A stretch of 64,000 nt of DNA from Magnetococcales bacterium (GCA_015231175.1 JADGBZ010000006.1:1-64000); one strand, 5' to 3'. Shown: positions 43,907 through 47,395, numbered from the stretch's first letter. The notes: generated by a model not told the origin, from the letters alone. Made by a program: numbers and translations.

Positions 43907-46900
43907 TTACGCCTTGGTGATCTTCACGAAACCGCCTTGGACATACTGCTTCAAGGCAGCGCTTTCATTACCGGGACGCAGTCCCAGTTCCACCGGTCGC
44001 CACTTGCCGATGCCACCAATGCCACCATTCTCTGCCTTGGTGAATTTGGCGATGGATTCGCGCGGAGCATTGGTCACGCAGTGGACATCGACGTTGAACC
44101 CTTTGGTCACCTCGTTGGTCCAAGACTTCCGGGTGATGAGGGTGGCGGTCTGGTGGGTGGGTTTGAGCCAGGAACGGGTGAGGCTCTGATGTCCACCATA
44201 ACGGAACAGGGATTGGTAATGGGTCTCGGCGTTCTTGGCAATGCCGTCCGCGCGGCTCTCGTGAGCCTTGACCGAGCCGGGAGTGGCCATGTACCCGTTG
44301 AACCACATGCGGGTGATCCCCATGGGGGTGCCGGGATAGTAGCGGGCACGACAAAGCAGACGAGCCACCTTGTACTCGTCCTTGCGCTTGGGATCGTTCC
44401 AGCCGCGGAAAGGGAGATCGTTCGGGTCGCCGTCGACATGGACGTAATCCCCATCCTCGATGCCCATGGCCTTGGCATCTTCCGGATTGATATCCACATA
44501 CATTTCGCCGACGCTCGGCATGCGCTTGTCGCGCCGGTACATGTCGCCGAAAGGCCCGAAGAGCGCCGACATGAAGTCGGTATCGATCGGGGTGGTATGG
44601 GCGCCATGCCGATATTTCGGGGTGTGGAAAACGTGATCCCACCCTCTGTCCTTCAATGGGTGCGCGGTGGCCATCAACTGTTCCACCGTGTAGGTCGTGT
44701 TGCGCATCTGCCGGGTGGTATGGGTACGGTCCCCGTCGGGAATCTGCCAATCCGCCGGTCTCTTGGGTTTGATCGCCGGATGAGCAGCGGCAACGATGGC
44801 GCAGGGATCGTGGAACGTGGCATCGGAAGGTTCCCGATGCACGATCAGGTTTTCACCCGCCTCGATGAATTCAAGCTCTGGACGATAATACTCCAGCCGT
44901 CCGGTTTTGGTGTGCCAGGGTCGGGACTCCTGCACCTGTTCGTAGCTGTTGATGCGCGGATAGGTGCGGGTGTTGAGCAGGGCGGGAATGCCCTGTTTGG
45001 CCAGCACTTCCAGGTCGGCGAATCGATAACCCTTCAGGGATGTCGAGCCGTTGATCATCCGTTGCATGTACACCTCGGGACGTCCCTCGGCAATGAAATG
45101 CCACATCTGGCTAAACCGCTCATCACCGGTCAACTTAGCCATCTCCCGGGCTACAAAGAGATAGGTTTCGTTGTCAGAGACGGTGGCATAGGTCCGTTTG
45201 ATCGGAGTGCGTGGATAGACCTGGAAGAACGGGTTGGTGTTCGATCCGGTGAAGTCGGGATATTTCAACTCCATCCAGGAATCCACCCCGTAGACGATAT
45301 CGGAAAATTCGCAGGAGGCGGTCCACCACCATTCGTTGTAAACCACGATCTCCACCTTGGGCAGGGTATTGAACACCACGTCGTACATACCCTTCTGGTT
45401 GCCCAGGCTGGAGTTGGAATTGACCTGCCAGATCGCCTTGGTCGGGGTGGGTACATGAGCGCCGGCAGTGATCTTCTTGTTGCCAGCTTTCATGAGCCGC
45501 TCACCATTGGCCCAGTAGTGCATCGACTCGGGACGCAGATAGAGATGCGGTTTGGCCAACCCGTCCGGGTCAAGCTGCGGATGGAACGGATTCTCCAGGG
45601 TCCAGCTCGGCACGCCGGAGAAGAGGGTGTTCTTGTAAACGCCGGCGTAGCTGCCGACGTTCCCGCCATGCCGCCCCAGGTTGGCGGTCAGGGCAGCCAC
45701 GAGCAGAATGCCGCGATCCTTGTTGTCGTTGTTCCAGAACTGGTTCGGACCCATGCCGACGGCAAAGAGGGTCTTGCCACGATTTTTGGCGATATCACGG
45801 GCCAGGGTCTGGGTAGCCTGCTCCGGCGCCCAGGTGATCTGTCTGACCTGAGCCGGCGTCATGTTGTCGTCCAAATACTGTTTGGTCAGATCGTACACCG
45901 TGCGGCACGCAACCCTCTTGCCGTCGACCAGGGTCACCTCGAAGCTGCCCTGCAGGGCCGGGTCGAGACCCAGTTTCTCGAAATGGCTGCCAACCTGGTC
46001 GTGGGTCACGGCCACGGCGGCGTTCAGTTTGCTGTCCCACATGACGAAGTCAGCAAACTCGCCCGCCAGAGCCTCCGGAATCTGCACCCCTCTTTGGGCG
46101 GTGGTCGGCGCCGGTTTCTCCCCTTTCGGGACCACCTGCGTCCAGTTTTGCAGGGCGCTGTTCACATGACCGGCAAACACATCCTTGGCCTGCAACCGGT
46201 CCAGGGTATCCATCCGCACCAGGGTGGGCAGATCGGTGTATCGTTTGACAAAGTCGGTGTCGACGAGATTTTCCGCCATGAGCACCTGGGCCAGTCCGAG
46301 GGAAAAGGCCGGGTCGGTACCGGGGCGAATGACAACGACATCATCGCACTTGTTGGCGGTGGAGGAGTACTCCACAGTCACGGCGACGGTCTTGGCGCCT
46401 TTGAGCCGGGCTTCCGAGAGCCAATGCCCATCCGGCATCTTGGTCGAGATCCAGTTCATGCCCCAGGAGATGACCAGGCCGGCGTTTTCGGCATCGAACA
46501 ACTCGAAGTCGTTGGTCTGGTCGCCAGTCACCATCGGATGGCCGGGGGGGAGGTCGGTATGGAAAGAGTAGGAATCCCAGGAGCCGGAGCCCTTGGCATC
46601 GGCTTCAGGCACCTTGCGCAGATGGGCATCAAGCAGCGCCATGGAGTTGCCCATGCGGAAGGCGCCGAAGATGCGCAGGGCGCCCTGCATGGCCATGCCG
46701 CCGCGAAACTTCGTGACCCGGGTGCCGGCGCCACCAACCGCCTCCACCATGTCGGGATCGTACCCCTGGGCCAGCAAATATTTCTTGCCCTGATCGCCGG
46801 TGTAGGTCTTGGCAATGTTGTACAGAGCCTTGGCATGATAGACAGAGGCCTCCTTGGCCGTCACCTTCACCCAGGAGTCCCAGCCACGACGCATCAGGGC

Positions 46901-47395
46901 AGGGGGGGCCGCTCCGGTGTTGGGGTCGCGGGGAAATCCCTTGTCGGCCCACTCCTTGAATCCTTTCCGCAAGAACGAACCGTTGACGCGCCGGTCACCG
47001 TAGAAACGCCGGGCCAGCACAAGACCCTTCTGGCAGCAGCGCGGATCCCAGCGATGGGTCGCCTGATTGCCATAGAGATCCTGGGCCTTGCCGTAGCCGT
47101 AGGTCGGCTCGATGCGCACAATCACGTCGTTCTTGACGAAGGCATTGAGCAGGCAGTTGTGGGTATCGTTGGGACAGCACATGAAGACAAAAGTCTTGTC
47201 ATGCCGGAAAATATCCCTGTAGATTCTTTCCCAGTCACGATTGGGGTACGCCGCCAGGGGGTTCTCCACCTGGACCGGCGAAAGAAAGCGGAACCCCGCC
47301 ATCACCTCGCCCGGCACAGCCAGAGTTCCCATGCCGGCCACGCCAACCGCCTGCAGGAAACGCCGCCGCGACAACTGGTTCGTTTCTGAACTCAT
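43907..47395 (-). CDS. Catalytic molybdopterin subunit of type II DMSO-reductase family (NarG/NXR/PcrA-like), Tat-exported
   Basis: About 1162 residues. Twin-arginine signal SRRRFLQAVGVAGMGTLA at residues 9-26. N-terminal Fe-S region: FVFMCCPNDTHNCLLNAFVK and WDPRCCQKGLVLARRFYG. This PNDTHxC arrangement resembles nitrite oxidoreductase and perchlorate reductase alpha subunits. The aspartate in SFHTDLPPGHPMVTGDQTN lines up with the molybdenum ligand of NarG (CDLPPASP). Further motifs: VISWGMNWISTKMPDGHW, KTVAVTVEYSSTANKCDD. Substrate could be nitrate/nitrite, selenate, (per)chlorate or another oxyanion; no chlorite dismutase is nearby. The ATG at 47395 gives the Tat signal at the start. First gene of the operon. 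Confidence 0.92.
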   Translation of the reverse strand: MSSETNQLSRRRFLQAVGVAGMGTLAVPGEVMAGFRFLSPVQVENPLAAYPNRDWERIYRDIFRHDKTFVFMCCPNDTHNCLLNAFVKNDVIVRIEPTYGYGKAQDLYGNQATHRWDPRCCQKGLVLARRFYGDRRVNGSFLRKGFKEWADKGFPRDPNTGAAPPALMRRGWDSWVKVTAKEASVYHAKALYNIAKTYTGDQGKKYLLAQGYDPDMVEAVGGAGTRVTKFRGGMAMQGALRIFGAFRMGNSMALLDAHLRKVPEADAKGSGSWDSYSFHTDLPPGHPMVTGDQTNDFELFDAENAGLVISWGMNWISTKMPDGHWLSEARLKGAKTVAVTVEYSSTANKCDDVVVIRPGTDPAFSLGLAQVLMAENLVDTDFVKRYTDLPTLVRMDTLDRLQAKDVFAGHVNSALQNWTQVVPKGEKPAPTTAQRGVQIPEALAGEFADFVMWDSKLNAAVAVTHDQVGSHFEKLGLDPALQGSFEVTLVDGKRVACRTVYDLTKQYLDDNMTPAQVRQITWAPEQATQTLARDIAKNRGKTLFAVGMGPNQFWNNDNKDRGILLVAALTANLGRHGGNVGSYAGVYKNTLFSGVPSWTLENPFHPQLDPDGLAKPHLYLRPESMHYWANGERLMKAGNKKITAGAHVPTPTKAIWQVNSNSSLGNQKGMYDVVFNTLPKVEIVVYNEWWWTASCEFSDIVYGVDSWMELKYPDFTGSNTNPFFQVYPRTPIKRTYATVSDNETYLFVAREMAKLTGDERFSQMWHFIAEGRPEVYMQRMINGSTSLKGYRFADLEVLAKQGIPALLNTRTYPRINSYEQVQESRPWHTKTGRLEYYRPELEFIEAGENLIVHREPSDATFHDPCAIVAAAHPAIKPKRPADWQIPDGDRTHTTRQMRNTTYTVEQLMATAHPLKDRGWDHVFHTPKYRHGAHTTPIDTDFMSALFGPFGDMYRRDKRMPSVGEMYVDINPEDAKAMGIEDGDYVHVDGDPNDLPFRGWNDPKRKDEYKVARLLCRARYYPGTPMGITRMWFNGYMATPGSVKAHESRADGIAKNAETHYQSLFRYGGHQSLTRSWLKPTHQTATLITRKSWTNEVTKGFNVDVHCVTNAPRESIAKFTKAENGGIGGIGKWRPVELGLRPGNESAALKQYVQGGFVKITKA

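Follow-up and report, generated by a model that had tools for sequence, protein, structure and literature searches.

A probable periplasmic nitrate reductase of the nitrite oxidoreductase sister clade in a Magnetococcales bacterium

A complete four-gene operon of a Magnetococcales bacterium encodes a molybdoenzyme of the clade that is sister to the canonical nitrite oxidoreductases (NXR), and on sequence evidence we consider it probable, at about 0.6, that this enzyme is a soluble periplasmic nitrate reductase whose main direction is the reduction of nitrate. Our confidence in reduction is not higher mainly because Thioalkalivibrio thiocyanoxidans ARh 2, a cultured carrier of the operon, reportedly does not respire nitrogen oxides. 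The operon has already been described in Ca. Magnetaquicoccus inordinatus UR-1, WMHbinv6 and YD0425bin7 as membrane-bound and NarGHI-like, with the substrate left open (PMC6783814); in these, the genes have the same order, alpha-beta-gamma-TorD, and the alpha orthologues are 74-75% identical to the one analysed here. In contrast to that annotation, the present analysis assigns the enzyme to the sister clade of periplasmic NXR and reads its gamma subunit as a soluble EB_dh-type protein instead of NarI, and what is added to the earlier report is the clade placement, the regulation and a testable residue signature.

The operon and its subunits

The window, that is the whole stretch of 64,000 nucleotides that was analysed, belongs to a host genome of 3.8 Mb, made up of 175 contigs and with a listed completeness of 100%. 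The alpha, beta, gamma and delta genes lie head to tail on the minus strand, from 47395 to 41032, flanked upstream by the tRNA-modification genes tgt and queA and downstream by the tRNA-synthetase gene gltX, and the operon stands alone. A search of its surroundings found no CXXCH protein, no chlorite dismutase and no RNA elements; the first-pass annotation had already remarked that neither a chlorite dismutase nor a cytochrome gene accompanies the operon, and its description of a four-cluster beta, a haem-binding gamma and a TorD-like delta subunit in one operon agrees with the three genes found. In the window as a whole, an intergenic repeat of about 135 nt with the core GAAAGCCTTTGTCAGGGCTTCGCCCCGAACCCCACCAGG occurs at 7540-7674, 22391-22525, 40802-40936 and 50786-50920, with copies 62-84% alike with respect to the reference copy and an inverted copy at about 17776-17832. 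Two direct repeats of 300 nt, 99% alike, start at 33519 and 34246, 727 nt apart (within 33519-34979), and short tandem repeats adjoin them.

The alpha gene (43907-47395, minus strand) is an open frame encoding the catalytic Mo-bisMGD subunit of 1162 amino acids. Its N-terminus carries the twin-arginine (Tat) signal noticed at first reading (SRRRF, R10), followed by the motif C73-x2-N76-D77-x3-C81, by C121, and by Y276-x4-D281, which leads into LPPGH. The iron-sulphur region previously described as of PNDTHxC type is present at C73-C81 and can be refined to an FS0 site of the form C-x3-Asp-x3-C, not a cysteine-only one, as is also the case in the Kuenenia structure (PMC8387239). In that structure FS0 is bound by three cysteines and one aspartate, and a substrate asparagine has been proposed beside the Mo-ligand aspartate (PMC8387239). 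C73, N76, D77, C81, C121 and D281 align with C67, N70, D71, C75, C115 and D275 of Kuenenia NxrA (7b04; sequence taken from the alignments, residue numbering checked), making N76 the candidate substrate asparagine and bearing out the Mo-ligand aspartate that had been suspected in TDLPPGHP. The AlphaFold2 model of alpha, which is free of cofactors, has a mean pLDDT of 81.7, with low confidence in the loops at about 282-285 and 548-555; cofactor-lining loops are often of low confidence in such models.

The beta gene (42747-43874, minus strand; 375 amino acids) encodes the iron-sulphur subunit, with 15 cluster-type cysteines in four groups, and matches NxrB (7b04_A) with 403 bits, versus 205 for PcrB. 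The haem b subunit gamma (41798-42733, minus strand; 311 amino acids) is an EB_dh protein (6e-26) with PDB matches to 7b04_C and 2ivf_C, and its predicted haem ligands, M156 and K299, fall on the haem ligands Met155 and Lys305 of Kuenenia NXR-C. Apart from a Sec-type signal peptide gamma has no hydrophobic helix, from which a soluble periplasmic complex is predicted. Delta (41032-41784, minus strand; 250 amino acids), whose ATG is preceded by the Shine-Dalgarno-like GAGGGG, is a TorD/NarJ-like assembly chaperone (Nitrate_red_del, 1.6e-18) and is expected to be absent from the mature enzyme.

Family placement and substrate

The operon has the features of the type II DMSO reductase family, namely an aspartate as Mo ligand, FS0, a four-cluster beta, a haem-b gamma and a TorD chaperone, and is regarded as a divergent member because its scores lie below the NCBIfam cut-offs. 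The earlier assignment to an NXR type within this family is supported by the only full-length PDB match of alpha, Kuenenia NxrA (7b04, 855 bits); PcrA, NarG and EbdA score 148, 132 and 121 bits, respectively. The fold of the alpha model matches 7b04 with TMq 0.88 and TMt up to 0.92, at 37% identity, PcrA with 0.62/0.80, at 18-19% identity, and NarG with about 0.6. Of the first-pass view that the N-terminal pattern is closest to NXR and perchlorate reductase, only the NXR half holds, given the scores and fold identities of PcrA and its substrate channel, whose comparison had been suggested: the aromatic gate F164/W461 of PcrA is not conserved in alpha, where S275 and Y587 occupy these positions (S275 placed by counting back from the Mo-ligand aspartate; gate positions from PDB titles and the 4ydd numbering).

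Trees of 74 rows (LG+G4, SH-aLRT) and 37 rows (LG+C20, bootstrap and SH-aLRT) were calculated from a partial set of sequences, without Hydrogenobacter, Hydrogenobaculum, Nitrobacter, SerA and DdhA and with EbdA considered only as a PDB match. Both separate the canonical NXR, represented by Kuenenia and related Burkholderiales and, in the 37-row tree, by Nitrospirota, from the sister clade, and each of the two is fully supported (100 SH-aLRT; 100/100 with LG+C20). The sister clade, with 100% support and an internal branching that is only partly settled, contains the window sequence, Methanoperedens (L073, L080), many metagenome genomes and the sequence L121, which is read as Nitrotoga because it belongs to the order Burkholderiales and has the Y-4x-D-11x-QM pattern reported for Nitrotoga (PMC6050957). 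The 3Cys/1Asp FS0, the Tat signal on alpha and the Sec signal on gamma that mark this clade are all found in the window.

The Hydrogenobacter nitrate reductase, other putative nitrate reductases and the Nitrotoga NXR have been published in the same sister clade (PMC6050957), and its members with an assigned function (Hydrogenobacter, Methanoperedens, Nitrotoga) act only on nitrate or nitrite (PMC6050957, PMC7327174). As these are the assigned functions of the clade, the substrate can be narrowed, and judging from sequence it is very probably the nitrate/nitrite couple. The label of unassigned respiratory enzyme given at first reading, together with the proposal to check it by an alpha phylogeny, is right in that no functional assignment exists; the range of substrates listed was too wide, and the firm placement of alpha within the sister clade of canonical periplasmic NXR narrows the substrate and not the direction.

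Several known systems were compared with the operon. The Methanoperedens nitrate reductase belongs to the same clade, with 52% identity, the same FS0 and Mo-site residues and both P283 and D557; unlike the window, it has H552 and, downstream, small cupredoxin-like and other genes. The NxrABC of Kuenenia and Nitrospira are full-length homologues in alpha, beta and gamma, with a 3Cys/1Asp FS0, the Asn70 and Asp275 equivalents and the haem Met/Lys pair, but they are only about 38-40% identical, form a separate and fully supported clade and have Asn, Asp or Ala at the position of P283 and Thr at that of D557. The Nitrotoga NXR is periplasmic and shares the sister clade and the operon plan (PMC6050957), whereas the Nitrotoga-type L121, at 45% identity, has A and T in place of P283 and D557 and C instead of H286. 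PcrA and ClrA are alike in being type II DMSO reductase family members with an aspartate as Mo ligand and a similar beta and TorD, and differ in their identity of about 20-25%, a His-ligated FS0, other gate residues and the chlorite dismutase that is absent here.

Three established identities were rejected. For a canonical periplasmic NXR of the Nitrospira/anammox type, alpha branches outside the Kuenenia/Nitrospira clade and has P and D at the discriminating positions; for a perchlorate/chlorate reductase, the scores are low, the tree position and gate residues differ and a chlorite dismutase is lacking; and for membrane-bound NarGHI, TIGR01580 scores 145 versus a cut-off of 1084, alpha lies outside the NarG clade, FS0 is not 3Cys/1His and there is no membrane di-haem NarI.

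Within Magnetococcales, the operon copies lie on two separate branches of the 74-row tree (L012, L022 and L034 on one; the window, L004, L005, L007, L013 and L015 on the other), which suggests at least two gains by horizontal transfer. In a different lineage, four loci of the order Burkholderiales (L122, L123, L124 and L125, in G125, G387, G399 and G425) have the canonical NXR motifs DQAPGQ and NHYFHAT, and the alphas of L122-L124 branch with Kuenenia; their carriers are possible unrecognised nitrite oxidisers.

Evidence on the catalytic direction

Columns in which canonical NXR and the Nitrotoga type agree against the window clade were searched, and the active-site loops were then checked. 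Two residues after the Mo-ligand aspartate, at P283, all 111 rows from Methanoperedens, the window clade and the remaining sister clade have proline, as do E. coli NarG, PcrA and a haloarchaeal homologue, against Asn, Asp or Ala in the 24 canonical NXR rows and Ala in the Nitrotoga type. Position 557 holds Asp in 102 of 112 reductase-type rows and Thr in all 25 NXR-type rows, in a table in which a genome is in some cases represented by several rows and from which the signature was picked after inspection. Both P283 and D557 are common to alpha, E. coli NarG, PcrA, Methanoperedens and the haloarchaeal homologue, and ClrA matches neither pattern. Because canonical NXR is one lineage and Nitrotoga one sequence, the signature amounts to two evolutionary events, not 25. 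It is conceivable, though we hold it rather unlikely, that the catalytic bias of periplasmic Nar/Nxr enzymes is governed by Pro versus Ala, Asn or Asp at the first position and Asp versus Thr at the second, both positions having changed in canonical NXR and again in Nitrotoga; alpha would then side with the reducers. Residues Q552, F553 and W554 are peculiar to the window clade within the substrate loop; Q552, present in most of the clade at a position that is His in NarG, PcrA and NXR, speaks against nitrate reduction. Eight sister-clade members from Nitrospirota and other metagenome-assembled genomes (L042, L050, L067, L128, L035, L076, L079, L069) keep P283 and have Ala, Ser, Asn or His in place of D557, and may be functionally distinct.

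The gap of 560 bases between alpha and tgt holds two FNR-type boxes, both on the minus strand: a perfect FNR/CRP-type box, TTGATCAAGATCAA (47822-47835), 440 nt before the alpha ATG, and an FNR-like box with one mismatch, TTGATGCAGGTCAA (47672-47685), 290 nt before it. Of 40 window-clade rows, 23 have a box with at most one mismatch in the 450 nt that precede alpha (perfect in 12 of them), where about one would be expected. Such a box turned up in 9 of 400 dinucleotide shuffles and in none of 40 coding controls; among the remaining sister-clade sequences it is seen in 2 of 51 rows, and among canonical NXR in none of 21. FNR/CRP-type control of the operon is well supported by this conservation. 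The box alone does not show direction, since the Nitrotoga-type L121 has a perfect one too, 256 nt before its start, which is unexpected for an aerobic nitrite oxidiser. Genes for a CRP/FNR-type regulator, MoeA and MoaA adjoin several orthologues, and the orthologue neighbourhoods revealed no substrate-specific partner; what recurs in them is limited to CRP/FNR regulators, two-component kinases and genes for the Mo cofactor.

The alpha gene is present in 19 of 48 Magnetococcales genomes, and none of the 48 has a NarG match; NapA is found above the cut-off in 17 of them, cd1 nitrite reductase-type matches in 29 and NosZ in 21. Six of the 19 carriers also have NapA and 13 do not, and in the seven of these 13 that have cd1 matches the alpha enzyme is the only nitrate reductase candidate found, as both NapA and NarG are absent. 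Nine further genomes have cd1 matches with neither the alpha enzyme nor NapA, and across the order carriage is not associated with NapA, NirS or NosZ (Fisher p 0.76, 1.0 and 0.14), so that genomic co-occurrence was dropped as proof of nitrate respiration. A search of the complete host genome found no NapA, cd1 NirS, Cu-NirK, NrfA, NirB or NosZ, and for lack of every nitrite reductase tested any nitrite formed would have to leave the cell; a congener with a 93% identical alpha has both cd1 and NosZ. Chlorite dismutase is absent from 18 of the 19 carriers, including the host (no Cld family match), which disfavours a chlorate-respiring system. The only chlorite-dismutase-family gene among the 48 genomes lies in a 76% complete congener of the host (G001, C162:2924-3505).

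The cultured T. thiocyanoxidans ARh 2 carries an operon (L030) that is 66% identical, and a search of its whole genome found no other full-length relative. The genome paper lists a partial nar operon and states that the species cannot use NOx as an electron acceptor (PMC5328954). We take this partial nar operon to be L030, which in ARh 2 would either be silent under the conditions tried or have a role other than growth by nitrate respiration.

Proposed mechanism and alternative readings

In the mechanism that we propose, alpha and beta would be folded and loaded with cofactors in the cytoplasm with the delta chaperone and exported together through the Tat signal of alpha, and gamma would be exported separately by Sec. 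The haem b of gamma (M156/K299) would receive electrons from a periplasmic carrier, probably a c-type cytochrome supplied from quinol, and hand them on through the four beta Fe-S clusters and the Asp-ligated FS0 of alpha to the Mo (ligand D281). There, with N76 holding it in place, nitrate would be converted to nitrite. An FNR/DNR-type regulator would probably switch on expression at low oxygen.

The same architecture and FS0 ligation are found in Kuenenia NXR, which is bidirectional (PMC8387239), and a Nitrotoga-type NXR lies in the same sister clade. The enzyme could accordingly be a nitrite oxidoreductase physiologically, oxidising periplasmic nitrite to nitrate and passing electrons to a high-potential cytochrome c and an oxidase as in Nitrotoga, a reading consistent with a host genome in which no nitrite reductase was found and with a carrier, ARh 2, that does not respire NOx. 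We hold this to be unlikely, since alpha lacks both changes (not-Pro at 283, Thr at 557) common to the 25 NXR-type rows and sibling genomes have NirS and NosZ; the anaerobic-type FNR boxes argue only weakly in the same direction, L121 having one as well. The phenotype of ARh 2 (PMC5328954), the residues peculiar to the window-clade substrate loop and the open substrate of the UR-1 authors (PMC6783814) could also be reconciled with a reductase of another oxyanion (chlorate, selenate, iodate or the like), for which nitrate would be a side substrate. This is similarly improbable, as the clade does not include ClrA and PcrA, which are distant relatives, the PcrA gate positions are not kept, chlorite dismutase is missing from nearly all carriers (18 of 19) and the clade members found with an assigned function all act on nitrate or nitrite (PMC6050957, PMC7327174).

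A redox valve run both ways, as Kuenenia NXR works in both directions (PMC8387239), or a nitrate reductase serving electron disposal or nitrite supply without supporting growth, would agree with the failure to find a nitrite reductase in the host, with a carriage that shows no association with denitrification genes and with what is reported of ARh 2; the residue pattern, which is of reductase type, speaks against it, and we regard it as very unlikely. Nitrate reduction as the main direction remains our preferred reading.

The enzyme is widespread, occurring in Magnetococcales, Thiomargarita, Thioalkalivibrio, Betaproteobacteria, Planctomycetota and archaea, but surveys do not distinguish the two directions in this clade, and authors who found such genes have stated that they were unable to assign one from sequence (PMC10732223). 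If the two-residue signature is true, nitrate reducers and nitrite oxidisers would be separable from sequence. Many metabolic reconstructions would have to be revised once such a rule, or a single assay in a cultured carrier, gave the direction.
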